From IMG/VR virus record IMGVR_UViG_3300017758_000017, positions 1-45,370 of that record: a stretch of 45,370 nt of DNA; one strand, written 5' to 3'. Shown here in pieces: positions 18,515 to 44,191 of the stretch (its first letter is position 1; each line of letters opens with the position of its first letter). Made by a program: the position numbers and the translations under genes. This DNA comes from a virus. The notes under the pieces were generated by a model that was not told where the DNA came from, made no database searches, and worked only from the letters and a program-made list of their open reading frames with translations.

Positions 18515-20881
18515 ATGGCCTTAAACTCTCCAGAAACACTGACATCCTTGAATTTTAATTTTTCAAGCTCTGGAGGAGATCACTCAATGACCACTGAAAG
18601 CGTTATAAATGCCAAAGACTTAGCGCAGGATGGGAATAATCTTGGGACAATTATCGGTTCTGAGTCTGGACGAATCACTGCTTCTAATGGAAAGATTCAA
18701 CAGGCAATCCAAAACTTTGTAGTTACTAAAGAGACTACTAGCAAAAATGGGACTTTAACAACAGTAAGCAGAGAATACGCTAATAGAACTTCACTTTTAT
18801 TAAAATCTAATTGTTTTCTTGTCAGAGGAAGTCAAGGTCATCCTAGAGATGGGGAAGGAGAAATTACAGTGCCTTACTTTAGTGAATGCACAAATACCCC
18901 TGTAGACGTAAATCAAAGGTTCCCGAGAAGAGGCCCATCTTATAAAAATGGTATTGTAAGAATAGGGAATATTTATAATGAAGAAAGTTCTGTTGACTCA
19001 GATGGCGTTAAAACATCTTTAGTTTATCAAAACCAAATTCTTCAAGAAGATTTGTGTTATAATTTGACGACTGCAAATGCAGGTGGTGGCGTAAGCTCTT
19101 ACTATATAGATAATCCAGATTACGCTAATTATGATTTACGTTTTGGATACACGTTGAACGAGGCAATACAAGGATTTGGGATGTGCGGGATCAAACTTGA
19201 TGTTCCGAACTCCAATGCAAATGTGTTATTTGAGGAGTCTGGAACTTTAGACGCAATTGTTTCTAATATAGCTTCAAAATTTGGGTATTATTGGTTTATT
19301 GATCCGTTTACTAATGTAGTTAAGTTTATAAATTCTATCGCAGCATCAACCATAGCCATCACAAATCCATTAACACAATCCCAAGAGATACAAAAATCAT
19401 ACGTTGATGCTTCTTTTACAAAAGATAGGATGTCTCCCGTATTTGTTAATGCTTTTTCTGGTAATATAGAGAAACAAAAACAAACTTTTGAATATGATCA
19501 GGGAGAGAGGTTTACTAGATTTAGAAAACTTCCCGTTGATAAAGTTATAAACAAATTAAAAATTACGGAAAATTTGCTTAAATTGTATTATACGATGTGG
19601 CTCGCTGGAGCTTATAACAAGGACAATTTTGATGTTTTGGGGATTATCGCAACAAGACTATCCGAAACCATTACTTGGAAGGATCAGGAGTGGAATGGTA
19701 GTAGTGCAGTAAAGTCTTCAAGAGCGGGGGATATTTCAATACTGTTGAAGAACACTAGGATGATAGATGCCTTAAATAAAGATGGACAGATGGATCTCCG
19801 AAAAGCAAAATTTATATCTTTAGCAAACAAAACCAGTGTTGTAAAAATAGAAAGACCATCACAGGGGACAGCTTTTTCGAAAATAGACTTGGTTCTTAGA
19901 TTACTACATAATACAATTTATGTTTCTAATTTTTATAGGCAGTATTCAGCGAGGAGGACAAATTGGGCAGGATCTGAAATGAGTATAAGTGGGCCTTTCC
20001 TTAAGACAACTAAAATCAAAGAGATCGAAGCTCTCGCTGATCTTCATGGTGCTCTTGGAGAAGGCAGAGACGAAATTACACTTGAGGAGATAATGGAATT
20101 TTCTGGCTCTACTGGGGGTGGAGACTATGGTTTTATTGGAATACTTAACGGATCGAACAGAGCTAGTCGAGGACTCGGCCTAGAAGATCTTAATTTTGGT
20201 CTATTTAATAATGGTGAATATCGATATGTTAATGCAGTTAATGAACATTTAGGATATACCGAAGAACTAAGTGATAAGATAAAAAGTATTATGGACGCAT
20301 CTCCAAAAATATTTAATGATCAAGATAAAGAGGTGAGTGGACCAAGCACTGCAAAGGCTTACTTTACTAGATCAAAAAGGCCAACTGATGAGATAGCTGA
20401 CGATGCAACGAGGGAAGAAGAAGAGGAGAGAGCTGAAAAACAGGCACAGCTTGATGCGGCAGCACAGAAGTTAGCTGAATTAGCTGAGAGATATGATATT
20501 AGATATTATAGCGTGAAAAATAACGGATCTACTGGTAACATTTATAGTCCAATTAGATTAGATATTAAGAGCGGTAAAATTGCAGATATAAAAGCATTGG
20601 AAAATAGCCAGTTATCCGCTATTCAATCCCTGCGGAATCCTACGTCTCAATCCAGTAGAACGATAGTCGGGATTAGTTTGCCTACTGCATTTCAACCAAC
20701 GATATCTGGAATTTCTCTTAAGTTAGGTGGATCTGGAGTAACCACAACGATTGATGAATCTACTGTTAAGCTCCTTAGACCAGACGAACAATTGATTATT
20801 GACAGGAATTTAAATGCATTTTTGACGACTAGGAACCAGACTAATTTTAGAGCCTCTCAAAAGAATTTCTTAGGGCTTTAG
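18515..20881 (+). CDS. Putative tail hub/baseplate protein
   Basis: A 788-residue protein, the last gene of the virion block. Residues about 215-280 include GTLDAIVSNIASKFGYYWFID and then VVKFINS. This resembles the domain of tail hub proteins in which a helix precedes a strand carrying FxxD and a following strand. An Arg/Asn-rich middle and a charged coiled segment (residues about 630-660, EEEEERAEKQAQLDAAAQKL) follow, with a beta-rich C-terminus (TIVGISLPTAFQPTISGISL). No protease or lysozyme motif was found. The final 12 bases overlap the end of the convergent gene 20870-21661, with no terminator between them. Hub or baseplate is an inference from position and size. Confidence 0.5.
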   Translation: MALNSPETLTSLNFNFSSSGGDHSMTTESVINAKDLAQDGNNLGTIIGSESGRITASNGKIQQAIQNFVVTKETTSKNGTLTTVSREYANRTSLLLKSNCFLVRGSQGHPRDGEGEITVPYFSECTNTPVDVNQRFPRRGPSYKNGIVRIGNIYNEESSVDSDGVKTSLVYQNQILQEDLCYNLTTANAGGGVSSYYIDNPDYANYDLRFGYTLNEAIQGFGMCGIKLDVPNSNANVLFEESGTLDAIVSNIASKFGYYWFIDPFTNVVKFINSIAASTIAITNPLTQSQEIQKSYVDASFTKDRMSPVFVNAFSGNIEKQKQTFEYDQGERFTRFRKLPVDKVINKLKITENLLKLYYTMWLAGAYNKDNFDVLGIIATRLSETITWKDQEWNGSSAVKSSRAGDISILLKNTRMIDALNKDGQMDLRKAKFISLANKTSVVKIERPSQGTAFSKIDLVLRLLHNTIYVSNFYRQYSARRTNWAGSEMSISGPFLKTTKIKEIEALADLHGALGEGRDEITLEEIMEFSGSTGGGDYGFIGILNGSNRASRGLGLEDLNFGLFNNGEYRYVNAVNEHLGYTEELSDKIKSIMDASPKIFNDQDKEVSGPSTAKAYFTRSKRPTDEIADDATREEEEERAEKQAQLDAAAQKLAELAERYDIRYYSVKNNGSTGNIYSPIRLDIKSGKIADIKALENSQLSAIQSLRNPTSQSSRTIVGISLPTAFQPTISGISLKLGGSGVTTTIDESTVKLLRPDEQLIIDRNLNAFLTTRNQTNFRASQKNFLGL

Positions 20882-21661
20882 TTTTCTAATAGCAGCTCTA
20901 ATTTTGCGAACCTCTTTGACTGGTATTTCGTCAAAGTTATTCCAGTTTTGAGCATCTTTATTTTGATAAATCTCTTGCTTCCATAGAGAGCGCAAGGCTC
21001 CTTTTTTGAAGTCTTCGAAATTGTTACCCCCACCAGTATAGTCTTGCCAGTCTTGAAATAGTCTTGTGTGAGGGGAAAGAATGCTTCCTATAGTTTCATC
21101 GCCAGAAGATTCAACTGATTGAGAATTTACAGCTCCTTTTGATTTATCAATCTCATCAGCTCCCACGATGTGAATGTTTAGAAAATTACGAACACATCTC
21201 ACAAAAGCTCTATTGCAAGCGATAGTTTCTAGGAACTTTGCTGCGAAAGAACCTGTATTTTGTAGTGTCGCATTTGCGACATCTTGGTAAACAACGCCGC
21301 ATCCCCCAGCTCCTCTATTCTCATAATTAGGTAACCAAATGATTTCACAGCTTGCAATTGCGTAAGTATCACTTAAGTGATCAGTCTTGAAAGAAACGCT
21401 CTCAAAACCTCTAAGGCGAGCAAGCTCTTTAATACCACCCAGCATGATTAAAAGTTGTTTGTCATCCAAGCCCTCTGGTGAAGTAGGAACATCCTTTTTG
21501 CGAGCTTCAAACCAATCTTTATTTGGGTAGAGAAACTCTGGCTTAATCATGGCTCTCCAATTTACAGAGCCGTCCTCATTAAATTCGTATTCTGCATTTT
21601 CTAAAAGTCCGTGCTCATTACGTTTGTAAAGATCGGGTCCATAAATCTTTTTATCACTCAT
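20870..21661 (-). CDS. Rad52-like single-strand annealing protein (recombination)
   Basis: I place the start at the ATG of MSDKKIYGPDLYKRNEHG (263 residues), one base after the upstream gene's stop; a longer frame would run into that gene. Residues about 65-165 look like a Rad52/ERF-type annealing fold: LIMLGGIKELARLRGFESV is followed by strands with AIASCEIIWLP. Then comes NATLQNTGSFAAKFLETIAC, followed by NRAFVRCVRNFLNI and VGADEID, the last resembling the RA-x-x-R-A-LR helix of this group. The C-terminus (about 210-263) is a short helical domain. A phage annealing protein would fit the SSB-like gene in the same cluster and UvsX elsewhere. A related DNA-pairing protein is the main alternative. 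Confidence 0.5.
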   Translation of the reverse strand: MSDKKIYGPDLYKRNEHGLLENAEYEFNEDGSVNWRAMIKPEFLYPNKDWFEARKKDVPTSPEGLDDKQLLIMLGGIKELARLRGFESVSFKTDHLSDTYAIASCEIIWLPNYENRGAGGCGVVYQDVANATLQNTGSFAAKFLETIACNRAFVRCVRNFLNIHIVGADEIDKSKGAVNSQSVESSGDETIGSILSPHTRLFQDWQDYTGGGNNFEDFKKGALRSLWKQEIYQNKDAQNWNNFDEIPVKEVRKIRAAIRKLKP

Positions 21662-21662
21662 T

Positions 21663-22772
21663 TCAATCAGTATAAAGCATAAGTTTATCCAAGTCAATGA
21701 AAATATCGTCTAAATTCTCTTTGTTATTTGCCTCAAAAAGAGAGTGATATGCTTGCCCATTTTTAAAATAAATTGTATAAGATTTTATCTTCAAGTCCTC
21801 TTTTGGGAGTTCGACCATTTTTTTTGCTTCCTCTACTTTTTTAGAGTCGTTGATAAAAGAGATTTGATTATCGAAAAACTTATACCTTTCTTCATTAATC
21901 GTTTTCTCATTTGTGCAAAATAAACGTAAAGTTACACCTTTCTTTTTCGCTCTTTCGATAAACCCTGAGTCAAATCGATCACAGAAATAGTTAATGCAAT
22001 TGATATTTTTTTGACTTAAAATTTTATCGCCTAATGGCTTATTTGTTACAATAGAAATATTATTATTTTCAAATAAGTGAAGAGTATTTTCTTCATCATG
22101 ATGCAAGTCAAACCTAAGAACTGTTTGCTTGGAGGATACCCCATATTTCTTATCTGGTATAATATGGATAAATTGTTCCTTATATTTATTGCCAATAAAA
22201 ATTGTTTTTCTAGAACTCTTATTTTTGCGTAACTTTTTTAGAATAGCGTTGGCTATTTCCTCTGGTTTAATCAAGTTGACTTGCTTAGGCTCCTCTTTTA
22301 AAGAGTAAGATGGTTTTTTGCCGTTCCTATGAGATTGAATTATTGTGTGGTTCTTTTTTGAACCCCAGACTGGACTGCAAGTAGAGGCATAGGTGTGTGC
22401 ATATATCGCAACAATAGGTTTATCAAAAGAGGAAGCAATATGAACTGGCAAACTATCTATGCCAACATGCATAAGACCATTCTTAATAATATAAGCAGAT
22501 TGCTTGATGCTGGTAGTAGCAAGAAACTTGGTAACATTTTTTATTTTTGGTTCTTCCCCAGAACCTATTTGAATAAACTTAATATCTGGAGCTTGCTCCT
22601 TAACTAAGCAAATAACCTCTTCCCAATAATCGTATTCTTTGGATTGAACTTTATTATCATTATGAATGGTGATATAATTATCTTCAAGAAGAGGAAAAAA
22701 ATGAGGTTTAAAATGAGGTTGACCAATTTTAACTCCCAAATCTTTTGCGTAAACTTCTACTAAGTGGCTCAT
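21663..22772 (-). CDS. C-terminal half of a GT9 (heptosyltransferase-like) enzyme plus an extra domain
   Basis: 369 residues. Residues 1-200 match the nucleotide-sugar-binding half of GT9 enzymes: YITIHND, then KFIQIGSGEE, and GIDSLPVHIASSFDKPIVAIY at 104-124, equivalent to the G-x-D-S-G-x-x-H-x-A-x-A motif. A WG motif follows at 136-137. The start MSHLVEVYAKDLGVKIG is what usually follows the first GT9 half, which is found at the C-terminus of the upstream protein (22769-24475). The two genes overlap by ATGA, so the enzyme is split. Residues about 210-369 form a separate unrecognised alpha/beta region (LRFDLHHDEENTLHLFENNN) that may be a regulatory or second catalytic part. It probably needs the upstream half for activity. 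Confidence 0.6.
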   Translation of the reverse strand: MSHLVEVYAKDLGVKIGQPHFKPHFFPLLEDNYITIHNDNKVQSKEYDYWEEVICLVKEQAPDIKFIQIGSGEEPKIKNVTKFLATTSIKQSAYIIKNGLMHVGIDSLPVHIASSFDKPIVAIYAHTYASTCSPVWGSKKNHTIIQSHRNGKKPSYSLKEEPKQVNLIKPEEIANAILKKLRKNKSSRKTIFIGNKYKEQFIHIIPDKKYGVSSKQTVLRFDLHHDEENTLHLFENNNISIVTNKPLGDKILSQKNINCINYFCDRFDSGFIERAKKKGVTLRLFCTNEKTINEERYKFFDNQISFINDSKKVEEAKKMVELPKEDLKIKSYTIYFKNGQAYHSLFEANNKENLDDIFIDLDKLMLYTD

Positions 22773-24475
22773 CTTAATTTAAATTGAGTTTTATCTTTCC
22801 CATTGTGGTTATAGCTGTATGTTTTCTGCGTCATACAGTGAGGGAGAAAAGCTATATCAAAAAGACCCTGATGATCCCCCCTGCCTTCAAGAACATGCAA
22901 GTCTTCAAATGAGTTTGAATAAGGGATAACTTTATGAACAAAAGGATTATCGTTAATAAGGTCGTAAAATTCTGGCTGGGTGACAAAGAATATCTTCTTG
23001 TCTGGATAGAGACTATGAAGGTTCTCCATAAGAGAGTTAGCCATTAAGACATCACCCGCCGATCTAGGAAGCACTACGGCAATTCGATCTTTAAGTGGGG
23101 TGTCTTTTAAGAAATCCTCTACTGAGATACTAGGCTTCTTGTCCTCCTTTTTCTCTTCATCCTTTGCTCTTATTTCAACCGACTTAATGCAGTGTTTTAA
23201 TTTATTTATAGTGTTATGGACTGAGAATTTTTCTTTAACATATCGTTTACCCGTTTCTACGAGTTTAGATTTAGACTGTCCCTCCATTTCATAAACCTGT
23301 TTTAGCCTCTCACAAATGCTGTCTGGACATGTTGTAGCTTTGATAAATTGAGTGCTTGGTTCCCTATATTCATTCCAAGATAGAGGTAGTCCACCTTGAT
23401 GCTCATATGCAGAATCAGTTCCACAAGAGTAGTCTGTAACCAGAGTGATTAGTCCAGCAGCCTTAGCCTCTTGAATTGGTAGCTCCTGACCTCCACTTGT
23501 GAATGGGTGACAGTAAACATCCATCATGTTATATAGCTCGTTTAGCTCCTTCTCTCCTACTCCCTTCCCGCTATTCTTCGTTTTTAAAGATTTCTTAGAA
23601 CCGCATGAAGGACAGTCTTTATCTTCTCCAGAATATGGTCGAACAAAGTAATCATCACACTTGTGGCATACATAAGTTGCCAATACGCTTCCGTCTTCAA
23701 GATCTTTTTCTTTCAGGTATTTTGGGATATCCCATCCATGATCTTTTTCTCCCCAGTCCGTATGTAAGAGGAGCTTTGCAGATACCTTTGGGTTTTTATC
23801 TTTAAATTTTTTAAATCCTTCCAATAGATTCGGGACAGACTTTCTTAGTTGGTTTTTGAATACAAACCCAATTACAAAATCGTCTTCAAGACCGTGGAGT
23901 TTTCGTAACTCTTTTCTGTTATCCAGAGGCTTAAAGTGACTGTAGTCTACAGCTCCGTGAACAGTCTCCACTGTCTCATGACCAAGCTCTTTCATTGCCT
24001 TTTCAGCGAAGCTAGCCCAAACCAACATTTTGTCACATTTTGGTTCCATTTCGATAGCTTGATCTAAAATAGGTAAGCTATCTAAAGTTGTCCAAATGAT
24101 TTTTTTTGTTTTATTCCACCAAGGTTTATTTTCATATTCCCTGAAAGCCCAGACATCTTCGATCCCCAAAAATACATCTGGTTTTACTTTTTCTACGATC
24201 TCATCAATTACATAAAATCCATATTGCGCGGCTCTTTTTTTAGATGGTTCTTTTTCTATAGCACTAAGGATCTTGGGATTAGAAGGATAAGTTCCGTAGG
24301 ACTCCCAAGGGGTGCTTATATCCCTACCATAAGGAACTCCGTTGGCAGCTTCTACGACTTCAATATCTGGATCATTATAAAGAGCGAGGAGAATATTTTT
24401 CATATTCTTCCCGAAACCCGTTACCATACGGGAGTAATTAGACTGAACTAAGACTTTGATTTTAGAATGGGACAT
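22769..24475 (-). CDS. GT4-like glycosyltransferase with zinc-ribbon insertion, fused to the N-terminal half of GT9
   Basis: I use the ATG at 24475 (MSHSKIKVLVQSNYSRM; 568 residues), which lies inside the end of the SSB-like gene (14-base overlap). Residues 1-200 form the acceptor half of a GT-B fold; 200-430 form the donor half with ELPIQEAKAAGLITLVTDYS at 331-350. A Cys4 ribbon (C270, C273, C288, C291) interrupts the donor half between HTDWGEKDHGWD and the YCHPF strand, where no ribbon is usual. A charged linker (435-460) leads to residues 463-568, which match the N-terminal GT9 Rossmann half (RIAVVLPRSAGDVLMANSLM, then FVTQPEFYDLI). The product likely transfers sugars to a surface glycan. 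Substrates are unknown. Confidence 0.62.
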   Translation of the reverse strand: MSHSKIKVLVQSNYSRMVTGFGKNMKNILLALYNDPDIEVVEAANGVPYGRDISTPWESYGTYPSNPKILSAIEKEPSKKRAAQYGFYVIDEIVEKVKPDVFLGIEDVWAFREYENKPWWNKTKKIIWTTLDSLPILDQAIEMEPKCDKMLVWASFAEKAMKELGHETVETVHGAVDYSHFKPLDNRKELRKLHGLEDDFVIGFVFKNQLRKSVPNLLEGFKKFKDKNPKVSAKLLLHTDWGEKDHGWDIPKYLKEKDLEDGSVLATYVCHKCDDYFVRPYSGEDKDCPSCGSKKSLKTKNSGKGVGEKELNELYNMMDVYCHPFTSGGQELPIQEAKAAGLITLVTDYSCGTDSAYEHQGGLPLSWNEYREPSTQFIKATTCPDSICERLKQVYEMEGQSKSKLVETGKRYVKEKFSVHNTINKLKHCIKSVEIRAKDEEKKEDKKPSISVEDFLKDTPLKDRIAVVLPRSAGDVLMANSLMENLHSLYPDKKIFFVTQPEFYDLINDNPFVHKVIPYSNSFEDLHVLEGRGDHQGLFDIAFLPHCMTQKTYSYNHNGKDKTQFKLR

Positions 24476-25040
24476 CGTCATCGTCGTCCTCAACTACGGA
24501 CGCTTTAGGAGTGGATTTTTGGTAAGTTTTTTTGGGCTGATCCTGCTTATAAGCTTCTGATTTAGCAGTTAAACTATCTTTGATGTAGCCTTCAAGCAAA
24601 ACAGCTAGGCATTCAGCCTCTCCAGCTTCGATTGGAAGTTTAAAGAATTGAGAAGAATTTTTTGTAACTGTCAGACCCCAAGCTGGTGATTTAAAGGTTT
24701 CTTGGCCATCTTTGTTTTTGATGATACGGTTTTTATCCCAAGGGGTGAATTTAATGATTGTTGTCTTTTCTTCTGTTTTGTGAAAACCTAAGAATGGAAT
24801 CCTAGTTTTCATTGAGGACAAGAACTCTCCAGCTTCAATGTCTGTGAGCTTAATTGTAGTAGATTTATCTGGATTCTTGGCGTTCTCCTTAAAAGAACCC
24901 GTTTTACGTTCATTATTCCAGCTATGCTGAAGAATCATGGAGACAAAAAGAACTGGATTACCGTTTCTGTCTTTAGTGCAGTCAAAGGTGAATGCTGATC
25001 CAGTATTTTTAGCATTAGGCTTATAAAGTGTAAATTTCAT
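24462..25040 (-). CDS. Whirly-like single-stranded DNA-binding protein with SSB-type acidic C-terminus
   Basis: 192 residues. The last nine are EDDDDDVPF, close to the DDDIPF tip with which bacterial SSB recruits partner proteins, but no OB-fold pattern is seen. Instead residues about 15-155 follow the order of a Whirly-type domain. Opening strands (FTFDCTKDRNGNPVLFVSM) lead to KLTDIEAGEFLSSMK at 64-78, then GFHKTEEKTTIIKFTPW at 85-101. WGLTVTKNSSQFFKLPIEAG at 121-140 and a closing helix AECLAVLLEGYI complete it. Lys/Gln-rich linker at 160-185. It should coat single-stranded DNA during replication and recombination. It stands divergent to the adhesin gene across 38 bases. The SSB role is well supported; the fold is my reading. 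Confidence 0.68.
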   Translation of the reverse strand: MKFTLYKPNAKNTGSAFTFDCTKDRNGNPVLFVSMILQHSWNNERKTGSFKENAKNPDKSTTIKLTDIEAGEFLSSMKTRIPFLGFHKTEEKTTIIKFTPWDKNRIIKNKDGQETFKSPAWGLTVTKNSSQFFKLPIEAGEAECLAVLLEGYIKDSLTAKSEAYKQDQPKKTYQKSTPKASVVEDDDDDVPF

Positions 25041-25078: not shown

Positions 25079-25957
25079 ATGGCATTTACTAAAATTCAAC
25101 CACAACAATTACAATTACCTACTTTTACGAGTCCTAGTGGTGATTTTTCATTTACTGACCTTTCAACTGGGATTCAGATTAACCTAGACAGGGAACTTGG
25201 TGGGGTGGTAAACTTCACTCATGGTGCTACAGTTAATACTAGACCGATTATAACTACAGCATCTACTAATTCTATTGCTGATGATTGTTTTGTTTTAGGG
25301 GGGTCAGATAACGAGGTTACGGGGCTAAATAATGTCATTATTAATGGTGAGAATAACACCAATGTGTCTGGAAACTTTAATACCCTCTTAAATGGGACTC
25401 AGGCGAATTTTGGAGCTTCTGGTCAAAAAAATACAATTATAGCAGGAAGATTAGCGGCTTTCGCTGATCAGACCACTGGAGCTGTTATATTAGCAGACCA
25501 TGAAGGATCTACCACCAATAGCACCAATCACTCTTTGTTAGTTTCTTTCAAGAGTGGAATGACTTTCCAAGACGGTGAGGTCTCCTTTAATAATAATATC
25601 GTTCATTTTACTGGTAGTTCGTCGCAAATACATGCGAAAAATTTATCAATAGAAACTAGTCTAATTTTGACCGACTCTTCAGAAGCGGCTTCTCAAGCTT
25701 ATGTTGATGAAAGGGTTGGATTTTCGCTAACAGAATCTGTGGATAATAACTTGACTAGTAAGCTTGAAGGTGCTGATTATTCATATATCAATGGTGTAAC
25801 CAATCTAGAAAATGTTTTAACTGGGACTTCGGCTGGAGTATCAGATGTATTTACTGGTCATGTATTGACTGGAACCAGTGTAGCTTATTTTGTTTTGCAA
25901 GGAGCTAATTTCACAGGGGCTTTACAGTTCTCAGGTGATGCTTTTAGAGCGGTTTAA
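25079..25957 (+). CDS. Adhesin/tail-fibre-like protein with YadA-style head repeats
   Basis: 292 residues. Residues about 65-130 contain turn-like repeats with the pattern N-[VT]-[IL]-[IL]-x-G: CFVLGGSDNEVTGL, NNVIINGENNTNVSGN, FNTLLNGTQANFGASG and NTIIAGR. Such 15-17 residue units form left-handed beta rolls in trimeric adhesins and phage fibres. A LADHEGSTTNSTNHSLLVSF stretch continues the pattern, and the C-terminus is Thr/Gly/Ser-rich (GVTNLENVLTGTSAGVSD). It is the only + strand gene inside the minus-strand cluster and its stop shares four bases with the stop of 25954-26337. Codon style and AT content look like the tail genes. It is probably a virion adhesin or fibre tip inserted into an early gene cluster. 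Confidence 0.62.
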   Translation: MAFTKIQPQQLQLPTFTSPSGDFSFTDLSTGIQINLDRELGGVVNFTHGATVNTRPIITTASTNSIADDCFVLGGSDNEVTGLNNVIINGENNTNVSGNFNTLLNGTQANFGASGQKNTIIAGRLAAFADQTTGAVILADHEGSTTNSTNHSLLVSFKSGMTFQDGEVSFNNNIVHFTGSSSQIHAKNLSIETSLILTDSSEAASQAYVDERVGFSLTESVDNNLTSKLEGADYSYINGVTNLENVLTGTSAGVSDVFTGHVLTGTSVAYFVLQGANFTGALQFSGDAFRAV

Positions 25958-26337
25958 TCAAGATCAATTTTAATCTTAGAAGTTTCAATAGTCTTCTTTT
26001 TATCAGAAATGTGCTTTTTGCCCACTTTCTTTTCGTAGTCATCAAAAGCCTTTCTTTTGACTGGATCTTCTCCACCGTTAGCTTCTGCCCTTTTCGCAGA
26101 TAATTCCGAGGAGTAGTCTAGAACATCGCCCACAGTTCCTTTCATCTTGCCAGTTTTCTCTACAAATCCGTTGTGATTCCAAGCATCATCTTTTGTATCA
26201 ATAGTTGCGTTGGGGATTGTGAAAATTCTCTTCCATTTCAGCCCAGAATCGTCAGTATATACATGTTCTTCATTCATGGTTTGAACGATTTCCTTGTATT
26301 CTTCGGTTTCTGGGTGTTTAAAAATATAAATAGGCAT
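25954..26337 (-). CDS. Small FmdB-like protein lacking the zinc cysteines
   Basis: 127 residues. It begins MPIYIFKHPETEEYKEIVQTM, which resembles the start of FmdB-type small proteins (MPTY-x-F/Y-K). It then has EEHVYTDDSGLKWKRIFTIPN where that family normally has its metal-binding cysteines, but no cysteine is present. The C-terminal half is Lys/Glu-rich and probably helical (EDPVKRKAFDDYEKKVGKKH). I have the impression that similar short proteins occur in other marine phages, without known function. It follows the GT4 gene with no gap (stop at 26338-26340, start at 26337) and ends tail-to-tail with the adhesin. Its role is unknown. Confidence 0.55.
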   Translation of the reverse strand: MPIYIFKHPETEEYKEIVQTMNEEHVYTDDSGLKWKRIFTIPNATIDTKDDAWNHNGFVEKTGKMKGTVGDVLDYSSELSAKRAEANGGEDPVKRKAFDDYEKKVGKKHISDKKKTIETSKIKIDLD

Positions 26338-27420
26338 TTAATAAATTTTTTCTAGGATTTTTTCAACGGTCTTTGCGTATGTAAACTCCTCTTGAAGCTT
26401 TAGCCCTTCGGTATTTTCAGATTTAGCAAACTGAACGGATTGATCCAAAGCATTAGAGATGCCATCTTGGTGAAGTCGGTAATACTCTCCTTGATTGTAT
26501 TTATGACCTTTGATGAAAAAGGCATTATCATAACAAGGTTGTTTTCCTACTGGATCTACAAGGATAGCGTTATCCTTAGTGGCCCAATCTTTATGTGAAG
26601 AGCAATTACTCACAATGGACCACTTACCTAGAGCGGTTGCATTAAATGCGGGTAGATTCCATCCTTCTCCATTAGATAAGCCAGAAATATCGATATCAAT
26701 TGAATTGATTAGGTCGTTAACTTCACTGTTTGTTTTAAGTCGAGGTAGGAAGTTAATATTAGAATACTTTTGATTATTCATCGCTTGAGCAATCGCTTGA
26801 TTCATTTGTTCTTCCTTTAAGAACGGGTTTCCAATTAAGCAGGTTAGTTGGTATCTTGGATTATTGCCAAATTTATTTGACCATAGCTGGATGAGAGCTT
26901 GGGTGTTTTTTCTTCTTTCCATTTTCCCAATAAGGCCGAAGTGAATCACATCATCACCAAGGTATTCTTTATCTATTTTGTGAAAATCTGTATCAAAACC
27001 AAGCGGGACATAGGACACATTGCCACAACCCTTATCCTTAAATGATTGAGCAGCTTCAGAACAAGAAAAGAAAACGTGATTCTGAGCTTTTACAATACTA
27101 ACCTCCTCTTCTGTAGGAGAGTCCACTTCATAAAAAGTGTATAAAAATTGATTATCTCCGATCTTTTTTTCTGACCCGTTAATATGCCAAACTTTTAGGG
27201 TGGGGGTTGACCTATCTAAACGACTTACTGCTTTGTCTGCATTTTCATTTATGTAGTCTTGATCTTCTTTCGGTAACTTGTCAAAGGCCGAGAAGTCTAA
27301 ATTACCCATTGGAAATATATTGAGATCTATATTTTTTTTCTTTAATTCCCTAAGAAAATTTAAAGAAACATTGCCTAAGCTTAGAGAATTGAACGGAGCG
27401 TCGAAATTGAGTTTATGCAT
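26338..27420 (-). CDS. GT4-family glycosyltransferase
   Basis: 360 residues, the second gene after the sigma factor in this minus-strand unit; its start overlaps the sigma gene end by eight bases. The N-terminus is a Rossmann-like half (LNFDAPFNSLSLGNVSLNFL, then LKVWHINGSE). The second half has the donor-site order of GT4 enzymes: IHFGLIGKMERRKNTQALIQ at 158-177, then YQLTCLIGNPF and SGLSNGEGWNLPAFNATALG. WSIVSNCSSHKDWAT follows, where the EGxxxPxxEA region is usual; here Glu is replaced by Asn/Ala. Probable role: adding a sugar to a glycan. The link to the sigma factor gene is unexplained. Acceptor and sugar are unknown. Confidence 0.66.
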   Translation of the reverse strand: MHKLNFDAPFNSLSLGNVSLNFLRELKKKNIDLNIFPMGNLDFSAFDKLPKEDQDYINENADKAVSRLDRSTPTLKVWHINGSEKKIGDNQFLYTFYEVDSPTEEEVSIVKAQNHVFFSCSEAAQSFKDKGCGNVSYVPLGFDTDFHKIDKEYLGDDVIHFGLIGKMERRKNTQALIQLWSNKFGNNPRYQLTCLIGNPFLKEEQMNQAIAQAMNNQKYSNINFLPRLKTNSEVNDLINSIDIDISGLSNGEGWNLPAFNATALGKWSIVSNCSSHKDWATKDNAILVDPVGKQPCYDNAFFIKGHKYNQGEYYRLHQDGISNALDQSVQFAKSENTEGLKLQEEFTYAKTVEKILEKIY

Positions 27421-28000
27421 TTTTTTTAAATTGTTTTTTAAATTCTTTTAACGTTCGGTCATGAATGTTTATGCAGCCCTGAGCAGAAACGCCAACTTGT
27501 TCTCCAATATTTTTCCAAGTTTGAAGTTTACCTTTTTCTCCTCCAAAGTAGCGTTCTTTAAAAATAGTTTTTACTCTTTCATCACGATGACCATTTATAA
27601 GTTCGACAATTGAAAACATGCTTTCTTTAATTTCGCAACTTTCATCTGGGTGCAAGTCGTCAGACTCTTTGGAGTAATCGATTGAGTCGAATGGCAACAT
27701 GATTTTGCCGTTTTTCCTTGCTGTTTTTTTGCTCAAACAGAGATATTTTGCTTTGTTGCCAACATGAGTGGAAAACTTAGCTTTGTTTTCGTCATAATCT
27801 AAGGCTGCTTTGTAAATTATGTAATCTTTTTCATCAATTATGTCAACAACGTCATTTGAAGGTAGGGATTTTGATGCGTATCTCCTCACCATATCAACAT
27901 AAATTCCTGAATGCCTCTCTATCAGCAAACCTAAAGCTTCTTCATGGTCACTCTGTTTAACTAAATCAGTTAATTCAGGATCTGTTGAGTCATAATCCAT
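27413..28000 (-). CDS. Phage-encoded RNA polymerase sigma factor (sigma-70-like)
   Basis: 195 residues. Residues about 18-95 match sigma region 2: EEALGLLIERHSGIYVDMVRR, then DYIIYKAALDYDENKAKFST and HVGNKAKYLCL. These give the core-binding helix and the -10 recognition helix with the D-Y-D and KFST signatures. Residues about 140-195 match region 4 (RVKTIFKERYFGG, then QTWKNIGEQVGVSAQGCIN), an HTH that would contact a -35 element or a partner protein. Region 1 and most of region 3 are lacking, so it is a compact sigma, comparable in role to T4 gp55 but longer at the C-terminus. Candidate targets are the GTGTAWW(W)A motifs. It has its own divergent promoter. Confidence 0.8.
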   Translation of the reverse strand: MDYDSTDPELTDLVKQSDHEEALGLLIERHSGIYVDMVRRYASKSLPSNDVVDIIDEKDYIIYKAALDYDENKAKFSTHVGNKAKYLCLSKKTARKNGKIMLPFDSIDYSKESDDLHPDESCEIKESMFSIVELINGHRDERVKTIFKERYFGGEKGKLQTWKNIGEQVGVSAQGCINIHDRTLKEFKKQFKKNA

Positions 28001-38376: not shown

Positions 38377-38823
38377 ATGCCGAGGGGTAAAAAGGAATGT
38401 CCAAAGTGTTCTGCTTTGTGTTCTAGCCGAGCTTTAGAGTGTGAGTGTGGGTTTATATTTAAAAACCACAAAAAAACACCCAAAAAGCCTACTTATTTTA
38501 GAGAGAGGCAGCAGTTTATAAAGAGGATGCTGAATAATCAGCCTTCAACGAATTACAAGCTGGATATGATCACAGCTACGAAGGTTTTCAAGCGCTTTGA
38601 AAATGATGCTGATTTTTTGTTGAAGGTTAAGCCTCCATTTAAGTTTGATGGGTCAATAAAATATTTTTTAACCAAAGATGGATTAGAATACTTAGACAAG
38701 AAGCTCAGAGAATTTTACTACAAGCCAAAAAACTCCGAAAAAATGGTTGACCATAGGCTCAAATTCGGAGAAGATATATTGATCGAAAAAAGAAAAACCC
38801 TGAGAGATTTTTTAGATGAGTAA
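38377..38823 (+). CDS. Zinc-ribbon protein, function unknown
   Basis: 148 residues. The first 30 residues carry a C-x-x-C ... C-x-C ribbon (CPKCSALCSSRALECECG), followed by a basic stretch and helices (RERQQFIKRMLNNQP, then DMITATKVFKRFENDADFLL). The KPPFKFDGSIKYFLTKDGLEYL segment could contact DNA. It lies directly upstream of the UvsX gene and overlaps it by eight bases, so a recombination or replication accessory role is likely but unproved. A small AAGG lies before the ATG. Confidence 0.6.
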   Translation: MPRGKKECPKCSALCSSRALECECGFIFKNHKKTPKKPTYFRERQQFIKRMLNNQPSTNYKLDMITATKVFKRFENDADFLLKVKPPFKFDGSIKYFLTKDGLEYLDKKLREFYYKPKNSEKMVDHRLKFGEDILIEKRKTLRDFLDE

Positions 38824-39943
38824 GAAAAGCGCAAAAGAAACAATCGGCACTTCGCAATTTATGTCGAAGTTTTTTAAGAGTAACAAAGAGTTTCATTACA
38901 ATTATGAAGATACTGCGAAGCCTTATATAGTTTCGACTGGTTCTTTGATTTTAGACCAGTTTATTGGTGGTGGTCTTGGAGCTGGTTTGCAGCGTTTTAT
39001 CGGCTGCAATGAAGGAGGTAAAACAAACGAGGCTCTTCATGTTATGAAGAACATGCTTGAGACAGTAGAGAAAACCAAGGGTCTTTATATTAAAGCAGAG
39101 GGTCGCCTATCAGGAGACATCCAAAAGCGTTCTGGATTGAAGTTTGTGACTGACCCAGAAGATTGGGAAGTCGGCACTTGCCTTGTTTGGGAGTGCAATA
39201 TTTATGATGTAGTTTTCGATGGTCTTAGAGAACTACTAAAGAATAACCCAGATAAAGAAAAATTTTGCATTGTCATCGACAGTATGGATGGCTTGATTCC
39301 TAAATCTGACCTAGAGAAGACTACCAGTGACGCAGCAAAAGTTGCAGCAGGTGCATCTTTAACTTCAGATTTCTTAAAGCGAGTTAGTCTTGGGATGGGT
39401 AAATTTGGTCACATGTGCATTATGATCTCTCAGGTTCGGTCAACTATTAAGACGAGTCAGTATGCAGCTAGTGATCCAAACAACCAAACCAATTCTAGCG
39501 GTGGCAATGCAGCACTTCACTATCCAGACTGGATCATTAACTTCGAAAAGAGAAATCAGGCCGACTTGATCTTGCAAGACCAAAAGGCAAGGCCAAGCCC
39601 AGAGAATCCAATCATTGGGCATTATGCCAAGGTTCATATTCAAAAGTCTACGAATGAGAGCACAGGGATGCGTATCCGCTATCCAATTAAGCATGGTCGA
39701 TCTGATGGAAAGTCTATCTGGATTGAGCGTGAGATTATTGAAATGCTGCTAATGTGGAACTTTATTGAGAAGTCAGCTTCTTGGTTTAAGTTTGATGAGG
39801 AGTTGATCAAATATCTTGACGATAGAGGCATTGAACTTCAGGAGAAGTATCAAGGAATGAAGGCTTTGTATGATCTCTTGGAGAGCAACGAAGAGGTGAC
39901 AAAAGCAATGCACTTATTTATTGCTGAAAACGTTTTCGCATGA
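38816..39943 (+). CDS. uvsX: UvsX/RecA-like recombinase
   Basis: 375 residues, close to T4 UvsX length. Walker A G63-C-N-E-G-G-K-T70 and Walker B in KFCIVIDSMDGLIP are intact. The L2 region GGNAALHYPDWI (with NSSGGN before it) matches RecA-type DNA-binding loops. GKFGHMCIMISQVRSTIKTS is the usual adjacent strand. It should form a filament on single-stranded DNA, coated by the SSB-like protein, and drive recombination-dependent replication and repair. ATGA overlap with the next gene. The C-terminal third (from about 300) is helical as in UvsX. Confidence 0.88.
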   Translation: MSKKSAKETIGTSQFMSKFFKSNKEFHYNYEDTAKPYIVSTGSLILDQFIGGGLGAGLQRFIGCNEGGKTNEALHVMKNMLETVEKTKGLYIKAEGRLSGDIQKRSGLKFVTDPEDWEVGTCLVWECNIYDVVFDGLRELLKNNPDKEKFCIVIDSMDGLIPKSDLEKTTSDAAKVAAGASLTSDFLKRVSLGMGKFGHMCIMISQVRSTIKTSQYAASDPNNQTNSSGGNAALHYPDWIINFEKRNQADLILQDQKARPSPENPIIGHYAKVHIQKSTNESTGMRIRYPIKHGRSDGKSIWIEREIIEMLLMWNFIEKSASWFKFDEELIKYLDDRGIELQEKYQGMKALYDLLESNEEVTKAMHLFIAENVFA

Positions 39944-40347: not shown

Positions 40348-40565
40348 ACAATTTTGACAAAACGGATAATACGTTACCTATAAGCATTCTAACGAAGCTT
40401 TTTGATTGCACGGGTTCTGGGAGTGGAGGAAACAAGGGATTCTTCCTTTATTACATTAATGATGCGGGTCAACCTACTTTTGCAACCAAGACAGAAAATA
40501 CTTGTGTCGATATGGCTTTGAGTAAGTTGGTAGAAATTTCTTTGGACGAGGGGGGTAATCGATGA
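40344..40565 (+). CDS. Small hypothetical protein between nuclease and helicase
   Basis: 73 residues. It contains GSGSGGNKGFFLYYINDAGQ, a Gly-rich turn followed by aromatic strand residues, and a helix CVDMALSKLVEISLDEG. No family is recognised. It is coded in the replication operon with ATGA overlaps at both ends, so a small accessory protein for helicase or primase is possible. A GGGGGG run near its end acts as the ribosome site of the helicase gene. Confidence 0.55.
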   Translation: MNNFDKTDNTLPISILTKLFDCTGSGSGGNKGFFLYYINDAGQPTFATKTENTCVDMALSKLVEISLDEGGNR

Positions 40566-42112
40566 TATCTAGCATGGATCTAGAGAAGACTGTATTGAAG
40601 GGTCTTCTCCAGCACCCTCACAAGTGGGCTGAAGTTTCAGTATTTCTCAATGAGAAAGATTTCTTCAGTGAGGACTCTCAGGTTCATCTTTCTATTTTTA
40701 AATTGATCCGCAATGCATCGAATAATATGGAGTCAATTGATGACACTATTCTTATTCCAAGATTGGAGCAACTAAAGGTGAGCTTTCCAGACAGTATCGA
40801 CCTACCAGAATATATCCGCTCTCTTGTTTATCATAAGATAACAGAAGATATCTTTATTTCTTCAGTGAGGGAGTTGAAAAAGTTCTCTGCTCGTAGAGAG
40901 ATTTATCGCTCCGCAAGGGACGTAGCGTCTTACGTCAAGAAGATCGATCCTGATGTAAAATATTCAGAAATTATAGATAAAGCTGACGAGATTTACAATA
41001 AAAACATCAAAGACTTTGAGTTCACTGATGAGGGGCCAATCAACCTTTTTGATATGATGGAAGATTTGGTTGAAGATAGGGGAAACAATCCTATTGAAGA
41101 ATCTGGATTAATGGGGCCACATGAAAGAATAAACGAGATTTACGGATCTCTACTTCTAGAGGGTAACATCTCCGTTATTGTCGCTCGTTCTGGCGTGGGA
41201 AAGACTCAGTTCTGCATGGATTACACAATAAGAACTGGAGCTAAATACAATATTCCTGTCTTACATTTTGACAATGGTGAAATGAGTGAAGAGGAGCTTA
41301 TTTTTCGTCAATGTTCTGCAATGAGCGGCATACCTGTTTACCTCTTGCAAAGTGGGAAGTGGAGGACTTCTAGTTATAAGAATTGGTCTGTTGAAGAGGT
41401 TGTAGCAAAGGTTCGTCAAACTTGGGATAAGATAAAGTCTGGTAATATGCAGTTTTATTATGTGAATGTTGCTGGTATGTCTGCTGAAGAAATGTGCTCT
41501 TATCTAAAAAGGTATTACTACTCTAAAGTTGGCAGGGGTAATAAAATGATCTTTAGTTTTGATTATATCAAGACAGACTTCAACAGTGTTGGCAAAAACG
41601 ATTCTGGTTGGCAGCAAGTTTCTTTGATGGTTCACTTGTTCAAGCAAACTATCCATAGGGATTTGTGTTTTGATGGCAAGCCCTGCGTTTCAATGATGAC
41701 TTCTGTTCAAGCAAATAGACTTGGGATTACGGGTAACAGGGGAACAGATTCAATAGTCGATAATGAAAGTGTAGTTTCTCTTTCTGATGGGATCACTCAA
41801 TTTTGTTCTCATTTGTTTTTATTGAGGAGGAAAGTCCCAGATGAAATTCATGAAGATGGAGATCGATTCGGAACTCACAAGCTAGTAAATCTTAAAGCTC
41901 GTCATCTAGGTAAAAACCCTCTTCGTGACATTAATCCCATAGAAATGCCAGATGGCTCTAATCGCAAGAATTTTATAAACTTGAATATTCAAAACTTTAG
42001 AATCGAAGAGCGCGGAGACCTTCAGGATATTGTTAATTCTATTAATAACGTTGATGTTAATTTGGAGTCTAGCAACGAAAGTGATGACATCCCAATCAGT
42101 CTTTCGCAATGA
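40562..42112 (+). CDS. Replicative DNA helicase (DnaB-like)
   Basis: 516 residues, DnaB/T4 gp41-type domain order. Residues about 1-150 form the N-terminal collar (DLEKTVLKGLLQHPHKWAEV), then a linker, then the RecA-like motor from about 180. Walker A is A208-R-S-G-V-G-K-T215; NIPVLHFDNGEMSEEELIFR, NKMIFSFDYIKTD (Walker B) and KARHLGKNP follow. Translation starts at ATG 40562 with a GGGGGG ribosome site eight bases upstream. It unwinds DNA at the phage fork and should work with the primase that follows after four overlapping bases. Confidence 0.88.
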   Translation: MISSMDLEKTVLKGLLQHPHKWAEVSVFLNEKDFFSEDSQVHLSIFKLIRNASNNMESIDDTILIPRLEQLKVSFPDSIDLPEYIRSLVYHKITEDIFISSVRELKKFSARREIYRSARDVASYVKKIDPDVKYSEIIDKADEIYNKNIKDFEFTDEGPINLFDMMEDLVEDRGNNPIEESGLMGPHERINEIYGSLLLEGNISVIVARSGVGKTQFCMDYTIRTGAKYNIPVLHFDNGEMSEEELIFRQCSAMSGIPVYLLQSGKWRTSSYKNWSVEEVVAKVRQTWDKIKSGNMQFYYVNVAGMSAEEMCSYLKRYYYSKVGRGNKMIFSFDYIKTDFNSVGKNDSGWQQVSLMVHLFKQTIHRDLCFDGKPCVSMMTSVQANRLGITGNRGTDSIVDNESVVSLSDGITQFCSHLFLLRRKVPDEIHEDGDRFGTHKLVNLKARHLGKNPLRDINPIEMPDGSNRKNFINLNIQNFRIEERGDLQDIVNSINNVDVNLESSNESDDIPISLSQ

Positions 42113-43158
42113 CCGATTACAAATCTGTTTTAGAAGATCTTGGTTATCGACTAAAAGATCATGGCTCTTATTGGAGAACTAGCGCTGTATATAGGTCTGG
42201 TGATAATTCTACAGCACTACAGATTTATAAAGATACTGGGGTTTGGAAAGATTATGTGGAAGACTCTATGTTTCTCCCCTTTGAAGCCTTACTTCAGAAA
42301 ACTTTAAATACTAATGACAAAAGTATTTTAAGCTCTTACCTAAAGAGTAATAGTGTAAATATATATGAACGCTCTGCTCAAAAAAAACTTTTGAATGAAG
42401 AAAAAACATATCCAGATTCTTGCTTAAATCGCTTGCTACCCCATTATGACTTTTATTTGAACAGGGGTATATCAGAAGACACTTTGAAGAAGTTCAAGTG
42501 CGGATTGGCAATGTCTGGAAAAATGTATCAGCGAGTCATATTCCCCATTTGCCGCCCTGACGGGAGGATACATGGCTTTTCGGGCCGAAAGGTAACGGAT
42601 GACCCTAGACCTAAATGGTTGCACAATGGGAGGTGTTCTGATTGGTTTTATCCATATTATACAATTGATAAAGTTCGAACTGCTATTGAAGAAAGTCGCA
42701 GTGTTTATGTTGTAGAATCGATTGGAGATTGTATTTCATTATTTGATGCTGGAATCAAAAATGTTCTTGTTTCTTTCGGTCTTAATATTTCACCTAAGTT
42801 CATATCTAAGCTGCATGGCTTGCCCTTAGATAAAATTTTTATTGCATTTAATAATGATTTTAATTCAGGTTCTAACAGGGGATTTGAAGGTTCAATTAAG
42901 TCTATATTCAAGCTCTGCGATCAAATTGATTTTGATAAAGTATTTTTTTCTCCACCTCCAGAAAATGATTTCGGAGACATGGATAAAGACCAAATAAACA
43001 AATATGTTGAATATTGTGCATCAATTAAGCATAATGAAACAATAGCCAACGTTATTGATTTTGCCAAAGAGATGAATAAACGTGGGGTCAATAAAACATT
43101 TACTTCTAATTTACGGAAGTTCGAAAAAAAATACGACTTCCATTATGGAGAAATCTGA
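42109..43158 (+). CDS. DnaG-like primase with cysteine-less zinc-binding domain
   Basis: 349 residues. Residues about 15-55 have the layout of the DnaG CHC2 domain (DHGSYWRTSAVYRSGDNSTA, then LQIYKDTGVWKDYVE), but the cysteines are gone. The polymerase part has VIFPICRPDGRIHGFSGR near 140-160. The TOPRIM fold follows: VYVVESIGDCISLFDAGIKN supplies the E and D, and FIAFNNDFNSG has N-N-D where D-x-D is usual. Primer synthesis for the phage fork is the expected role. The start overlaps the helicase stop as ATGA. Altered active-site residues could mean a weakened or unusual primase. Confidence 0.82.
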   Translation: MTDYKSVLEDLGYRLKDHGSYWRTSAVYRSGDNSTALQIYKDTGVWKDYVEDSMFLPFEALLQKTLNTNDKSILSSYLKSNSVNIYERSAQKKLLNEEKTYPDSCLNRLLPHYDFYLNRGISEDTLKKFKCGLAMSGKMYQRVIFPICRPDGRIHGFSGRKVTDDPRPKWLHNGRCSDWFYPYYTIDKVRTAIEESRSVYVVESIGDCISLFDAGIKNVLVSFGLNISPKFISKLHGLPLDKIFIAFNNDFNSGSNRGFEGSIKSIFKLCDQIDFDKVFFSPPPENDFGDMDKDQINKYVEYCASIKHNETIANVIDFAKEMNKRGVNKTFTSNLRKFEKKYDFHYGEI

Positions 43159-44191
43159 AAACAAGCCTCTGTCAGCCTCACGCATTAAAACAATGCAGAC
43201 TTGCACTTGGCAATATTGGGCTAAGTATCATTTGCGTCTACCAGACAAATCTAATCATGGATCTTTGCGTGGGACAATCTGTCATGCTATTTTTGAGAAC
43301 TTAGGTAACCCTAGACATAGGAAGCATTATAGAGCTATTATTAAAGCTCAAGATATAAATGTTAGCTCTCCTATTAAGAGGATGGTCGAAGCTTATGCTA
43401 AAAAGTATGAGATAGACGACTTTGAGAATATGGACCTAATCAATAAGATGACAGTTGAGGGTTTGAATTTTGACTTCTTTGGGGATACAGAGGGGAAACC
43501 TACAGAAGCTATCTCTGAGAAAGATTTCGATATATCTGTAGATGAAGGAGATAAGAATTATCGGATACTAGGGTTTATAGATAAGCTATTCCTCTTTAAA
43601 AGAAAAAAAACAGCCATAATCCGAGACTTTAAAACATCAAAAAATGTTTTCGAAGGTAAGGAGTATTCAGACAACATGCAGGATTATATGTATTGCCTTG
43701 CTGTTAAATATTTGTATCCAGAATACCTTAAGAGGCGTATGGAGTTCTTATTTTTAAAGTTCGATTTAAATGCGGAGGGTCTTATGGCTATGGAGCCGTT
43801 AGATGAACTAGACTTAGAAGGTTTTGAATATTTTTTAACGGATGTTCAGCAGGTAATCAACAACTTCAGTGAAAAGACTGCGGTTAGCGGTCTTGCTTGG
43901 GACAAGGGTTATCCAGCAAAGGAAGACGGGTTCGCTGGCAAAATTGTTTGTGGTAGAGCTACTCATGTAGGGCAATTGAAAAAGAATGGAGATTTGATGT
44001 GGCACTGTCCGTTCAAGTTTCCATTCGATTATTATCACCTGCTTGGGGGAAAAGATAAGTTCATCAAGTCGTCTTATGTAAAAGAAGATTTACAAGTCAT
44101 GCTTGACGAAGGAGTAGGCACACATATCGAGAAGAAAAAATATTCTGGTTGTCCGTCTTTTTCGTTTGACAGTCCAAGTGACCTCCTTTAA
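43145..44191 (+). CDS. RecB-family PD-(D/E)XK nuclease
   Basis: I start at ATG 43145 (348 residues), overlapping the primase end by 14 bases; the open frame starts earlier but inside the primase. LSASRIKTMQTCTWQYWAKY is the opening of RecB-type nucleases. RILGFIDKLFLFKRKKTAII and the RDFKTSK motif give the catalytic D and K. YSDNMQDYMYCLAVKYLYPE supplies the Q-x-x-Y helix. It probably trims DNA ends for recombination or replication, as with Cas4/AddB relatives. The cysteines do not fit a normal Fe-S cluster set. Confidence 0.8.
   Translation: MEKSENKPLSASRIKTMQTCTWQYWAKYHLRLPDKSNHGSLRGTICHAIFENLGNPRHRKHYRAIIKAQDINVSSPIKRMVEAYAKKYEIDDFENMDLINKMTVEGLNFDFFGDTEGKPTEAISEKDFDISVDEGDKNYRILGFIDKLFLFKRKKTAIIRDFKTSKNVFEGKEYSDNMQDYMYCLAVKYLYPEYLKRRMEFLFLKFDLNAEGLMAMEPLDELDLEGFEYFLTDVQQVINNFSEKTAVSGLAWDKGYPAKEDGFAGKIVCGRATHVGQLKKNGDLMWHCPFKFPFDYYHLLGGKDKFIKSSYVKEDLQVMLDEGVGTHIEKKKYSGCPSFSFDSPSDLL

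Follow-up and report, generated by a model that had tools for sequence, protein, structure and literature searches.

Can the docking peptide at the C-terminus of bacterial SSB be carried by a DNA-binding protein that is not built on the OB fold? The question is raised by an open reading frame on the minus strand (positions 24462–25040) of the IMG/VR virus record IMGVR_UViG_3300017758_000017, the whole 45,370 bases of which were analysed and are termed the window in the following. The frame is a genuine ORF with an ATG start and 192 codons (192 aa); the C-terminus of its product reads KASVVEDDDDDVPF and ends VVEDDDDDVPF. The original prediction had proposed that the body of this protein follows the strand-helix order of Whirly domains instead of an OB fold and that its last nine residues, EDDDDDVPF, come close to the SSB C-terminal tip (SSB-Ct).

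Elsewhere in the window, PHROG families were matched by a tape measure protein, ribonucleotide reductase subunits, a small heat-shock protein and part of a DNA polymerase, and, on the plus strand, by a UvsX/RecA-like recombinase (38816–39943; phrog_97, E 1.7e-31), a DnaB-like replicative helicase (40562–42112; phrog_19, E 2.7e-30; PF03796), a DNA primase (42109–43158; phrog_47, E 1.8e-23) and a PD-(D/E)XK exonuclease (43082–44191; PF12705, E 8e-15; phrog_69, E 7e-19). Two further minus-strand genes, 25954–26337 and 27413–28000, weakly matched PHROG families of transcription regulators (phrog_385; phrog_36 and the sigma factor family phrog_351); in some 40 loci these regulator-like genes are kept next to a further glycosyltransferase gene.

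Family and predicted fold

Confirmed relatives of the protein were found 318 times in viral metagenome contigs, the carriers of the gene forming a large group of phages, uncultured and for the most part marine; the relatives analysed here (the best 80 of the 318, plus others from separate scans) range in identity to the window protein from 100% down to approximately 27%. Across 52 diverse aligned rows the residues Y6, K7, P8, N9, K11, N12 and G14 as well as Q38, W41, F50, E69, H87 and E141 are invariant; the most conserved stretch of the family is the motif YKPNAKNTG (residues 6–14; 24999–25025, minus strand). The window protein alone matched no Pfam family at E values up to 10, no PHROGs family and nothing meaningful in the PDB, and a tblastn search against 50,697 phage records returned no match; divergent family members likewise found none among the cultured phages.

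The AlphaFold model of the 192-aa protein, calculated from 23 aligned sequences, reached a mean pLDDT of 87.6 and a pTM of 0.77, with pLDDT values of about 90 or more across residues 1–160. In the model, a single chain forms two β-β-β-β-α repeats in residues 1–166 (strands 2–7, 15–23, 29–37, (40–42, 47–49) and 60–65, helix 67–79, strands 83–88, 93–109, 112–127 and 131–138, helix 139–166), followed by a disordered tail (residues 170–192). On the minus strand, the predicted Whirly-fold domain is encoded by positions 24543–25040, a variable, low-confidence linker (residues 167–183; pLDDT about 45) that differs in length among the relatives by 24492–24542, and the tip (residues 184–192) by 24465–24491; the tailed relatives are 178–221 aa long. 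A Foldseek search against the PDB gave 14 chains at E < 0.001 (2e-5 to 4e-4), every one of them a plant Whirly protein. Structural alignment with VIA-align 2 gave a Z score of 16.2 to Arabidopsis AtWHY2 (rmsd 3.0 over 133 residues), followed by the trypanosome MRP1/2 proteins (Z 15.1) and Pur-alpha (Z 8.2), after which the scores drop to 5.8. No OB-fold chain was among the matches listed by VIA-align, a finding which by itself excludes nothing; in the BFVD, moderate scores were obtained for uncharacterised proteins of the Bacillus phages BPS10C and PPIsBest.

At the sequence level, Whirly (PF08536) was the commonest weak Pfam match of the family members (7 of 23 and 6 of 52 at E up to 1), the best E value among the 52 being 0.0019 and thus under the curated cut-off; StWhy2 was the sole PDB protein matched by profile A2 (E 0.67), and the 52-row profile retrieved from the PDB unrelated fibre proteins only, attributable to chance, and did not recover Whirly. 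Since in sequence similarity to Whirly the family stays below the threshold, the fold assignment rests on structure prediction. On this basis the models argue strongly for a Whirly and not an OB fold: Foldseek and VIA-align both favour Whirly, no OB fold was predicted, and the AlphaFold model confirms the strand-helix order originally read from the sequence.

Plant Whirly proteins (WHY1–3, StWhy2; PF08536) share the predicted fold with the phage protein over the whole domain, at Z 15–16. The phage protein is only 11–15% identical to them, below the Pfam cut-off, and differs in its origin, in the motif YKPNAKNTG at the start of the domain and in its true SSB-Ct-type end (acidic-x-P-F/W). Whirly proteins form tetramers or 24-mers, and their motif KGKAAL is needed for higher-order assembly; it was not found in the window protein, whose own invariant motif, YKPNAKNTG, lies between strands 1 and 2. 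The PC4-like ssDNA-binding protein of phage T5 (PDB 4BG7), a protein of the PC4-like superfold proposed as a recombination promoter (PMC8545432), is a dimerising β-β-β-β-α protein of PC4 type, whereas the window protein is predicted to form a two-repeat Whirly chain; 4BG7 was absent among the fold matches listed for the latter.

Conservation of the C-terminal tip

EDDDDDVPF shows the succession of acidic residues and hydrophobic-P-F by which the tip of OB-fold SSBs is recognised, so that the resemblance first noted holds for the sequence as read. In the family it is kept as acidic-x-P-[FW]: 78 of 81 distinct full-length relatives terminate in P-F (71) or P-W (7), and after clustering of the domains at 70% identity the tip is retained in 20 of 23, in each of the 20 with an acidic residue among the three positions preceding the proline. 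Variation is far greater in the linker than in the terminal pair, and acidity and length of the tail vary (e.g. GNSGAAPF, KDPSEAPF). A loss of the tip in close relatives, which would have spoken against the original prediction, was looked for: all close relatives and most of the distant ones retain it, and the three exceptions are diverged members, two ending before the tail (L040, L043) and one ending DDEVVF (L053). The two former proteins (L040:5881–6357 and L043:6001–6456) stop directly after the domain, and their short contigs yielded no OB SSB. The Whirly proteins of L044–L050 end P-W instead of P-F.

As a comparison set, the 792 further ORFs from the same loci with a length of 120 aa or more were examined; seven of them end in P[FW], of which five are OB-fold-SSB-like by their end (e.g. 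EFADIPF) and two represent the family itself, read from alternative starts. Because the non-family ORFs with this ending all resemble OB SSBs in their ends, the ending appears to mark ssDNA-binding proteins in these genomes. Bacterial and phage OB-fold SSBs (PF00436) follow the same tail plan of variable linker, acidic stretch and terminal P-F (P-W in some of the phage OB SSBs found here); it is the DNA-binding fold in which they differ from the window protein.

Gene cluster, probable annealase and OB-fold SSBs

The Whirly-fold gene is the first of a conserved cluster on the minus strand, followed by a glycosyltransferase (22769–24475; PF00534, E 7e-7), a second, GT9/heptosyltransferase-like glycosyltransferase (21663–22772; PF01075, E 3.4e-9, over the cut-off) and, as the last gene, a probable Rad52-like single-strand annealing protein (20870–21661). 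Among the 96 loci reaching far enough, the glycosyltransferase was present in 95, the GT9-like gene in 94 and a protein of 237–295 residues in the last position in 93; strand and order were identical in 93 of 93 loci. The linkage of the two intervening glycosyltransferases is as strict as that of the probable annealase.

The protein encoded by 20870–21661 found no match among the families of Pfam or PHROGs. AlphaFold (pLDDT 84, pTM 0.60) models it as a core (residues 1–166), a disordered link (174–194) and a helical C-terminal part. RAD52 tops both fold lists (Foldseek E 0.017; VIA Z 7.6 over 111 residues, rmsd 3.9) and Mgm101 reaches a VIA Z of 6.2, all Z scores lying below 8 and hence in the range where a common arrangement alone may explain a match. 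Although the single scores are weak, annealing proteins coherently lead the lists; the structural evidence is thus suggestive, and the protein is probably a Rad52-like annealase.

The search for PF00436 covered the window and the records of 83 relatives, the contigs being incomplete. No match was found in the window, nor in any of the 39 unfinished records of relatives more than 50% identical to the window protein, and an OB SSB accompanied the Whirly-fold protein in 23 of the 44 more distant relatives. Among the 14 window-clade records of the first set, none contained an OB SSB and 13 contained a DnaB gene, which indicates that the replication region is represented, though the records are unfinished. 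Those coexisting OB SSBs that were read are tipped as well (ADIPF, EDIPF or EDIPW); in L120, L121 and L122 the OB SSB of the phage ends W, its Whirly protein F. It is tentatively conceivable, at somewhat short of balanced likelihood, that a lineage of uncultured phages replaced its OB-fold SSB by a Whirly-fold SSB carrying the SSB-Ct peptide, the tip having either moved between unrelated folds or evolved twice.

Proposed role and its alternatives

From the gene, its predicted fold, the conservation of the tip and the cluster, all of which were computed, we infer ssDNA binding, oligomeric state, docking and partner choice. The Whirly-fold protein is probably a non-OB phage SSB whose tail docks partner proteins, in the first place presumably the annealase of the phage itself. 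The domain, probably oligomeric, would coat the ssDNA arising from replication and recombination, and the disordered acidic tail with its SSB-Ct-like end (acidic-V/A/I-P-F/W) would dock proteins bearing an SSB-Ct pocket: most likely first the Rad52-like protein encoded in the same conserved cluster, with the primase and the RecA-like recombinase of the phage and the SSB partners of the host as further possible partners. Among bacterial primases, DnaG is a known binder of the SSB-Ct. A precedent is phage 80alpha, in which the C-terminal domain of the Rad52-like annealase Sak80alpha and the last seven residues of SSB80alpha act in coordination (PMC11846896). In both cases an SSB-type tail would cooperate with the C-terminal domain of an annealase: here a tailed, putative ssDNA binder and a probable Rad52-like protein with a helical C-terminal part share a cluster, and it is this similarity in architecture that makes the annealase of the phage the first candidate partner. 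The systems differ in that SSB80alpha is described as tetrameric, whereas the binder proposed here is of Whirly type and two glycosyltransferase genes separate the pair. The phage proteins T7 gp2.5 and T4 gp32 are SSBs whose acidic C-terminal tails contact the replication proteins of the phage itself; in contrast to the window protein they possess an OB fold, and their tails are less similar to the host SSB-Ct.

Alternatively, and in line with the original prediction that the tip imitates host SSB, the tip might mainly serve to draw SSB-interacting proteins of the host (DnaG, PriA, RecO, RecQ, exonuclease I, Pol III chi and others) to the ssDNA of the phage. EDDDDDVPF resembles the ends of bacterial SSBs, and the tip is conserved family-wide; moreover, a 92% relative lies on a bacterial contig of a Flavobacteriaceae MAG, the chromosomal SSB of which ends EEDDLPF. 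However, this host link depends on one MAG of 299 genomes: within the Flavobacteriaceae group the family is present in that MAG alone, on two contigs, and the same MAG (G036) holds on its contig 64 a phage-type OB SSB ending DDEPPF that adjoins a glycosyltransferase (L127). Two Whirly-family contigs and a phage-type SSB contig in a single MAG make co-binned phage DNA look likely and suggest that the bin holds several phage contigs; Flavobacteriaceae were therefore downgraded as the host. In addition, a primase, a helicase, a recombinase and a probable annealase are encoded by the phage itself, and in one clade the last residue is W and not F, which need not suit the pockets of host proteins. 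A predominant recruitment of host factors is consequently regarded as possible but rather doubtful, and the tip may serve the machinery of the phage first.

It is unlikely that the tail is mainly autoregulatory, i.e. that it competes with ssDNA and tunes cooperativity in the manner of the acidic C-domain of T4 gp32, with no specific partner. The charge distribution (core approximately +7 and basic, disordered acidic tail −3) would be consistent with such a function, and plant Whirly proteins likewise carry a disordered end of acidic and aromatic character (PMC6963530); yet a role based on charge only would leave the last two residues unfixed, and it is precisely the terminal P-F/W that is constant while acidity and length vary. 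Still less probable is a nucleic-acid-binding regulator of the glycosyltransferase operon, be it a Whirly-type transcription factor or an MRP-like RNA annealer. The guide-RNA binders MRP1/MRP2 do reach a Z of 15, and in almost all loci two glycosyltransferase genes come next, but an SSB-type tip would be odd in a regulator; only SSB-like proteins bear it in these loci, and the cluster ends in a probable annealase.

A last explanation concerns the DNA itself. In the window clade, the codons GAT GTC CCA TTC TAA at the end of the Whirly-fold gene hold the start of the glycosyltransferase (ATG TCC CAT TCT), whose ATG lies within the D-V codons of the tip at position −10; GTC and TTC hardly vary, even at the third base. 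The start of the following gene lies outside the tip codons in 46 distinct relatives, mostly at TAATG or later, and here the codons vary freely (e.g. GCT CCT TTT, GTA CCC TTT, ATT CCT TGG). The overlap alone could hold the D-V codons constant in the window clade, where it limits codon-level tests, but 43 of the 46 non-overlapping relatives retain the tip, so that the peptide and not the overlap is conserved family-wide and tip conservation as a mere by-product of the neighbouring start codon is refuted as a general cause and extremely improbable.

Among the proteins already known are the PC4-like ssDNA binder of phage T5 and the plant Whirly proteins. The latter have a nanomolar affinity for ssDNA and protect organelle DNA from microhomology repair, and a function comparable to that of the SSB tail has been suggested for their disordered acidic/aromatic C-terminal end (PMC6963530). 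Searches of the open-access literature yielded no report of a phage protein of Whirly type, nor of an SSB-Ct joined to this fold. The window protein, being of phage origin and predicted to share the fold of these organelle proteins, bears on the idea of an SSB-like acidic Whirly tail. SSB is usually regarded as a matter of the OB fold and SSB-Ct as the tail of SSB; a non-OB family carrying the same docking peptide in hundreds of phage contigs would show that the docking code is detachable from the fold. If the replacement considered above did occur, the sister lineages would have retained both proteins, each with its own tip, and the common currency conserved in bacterial ssDNA metabolism would be the tip rather than the fold that binds the DNA.
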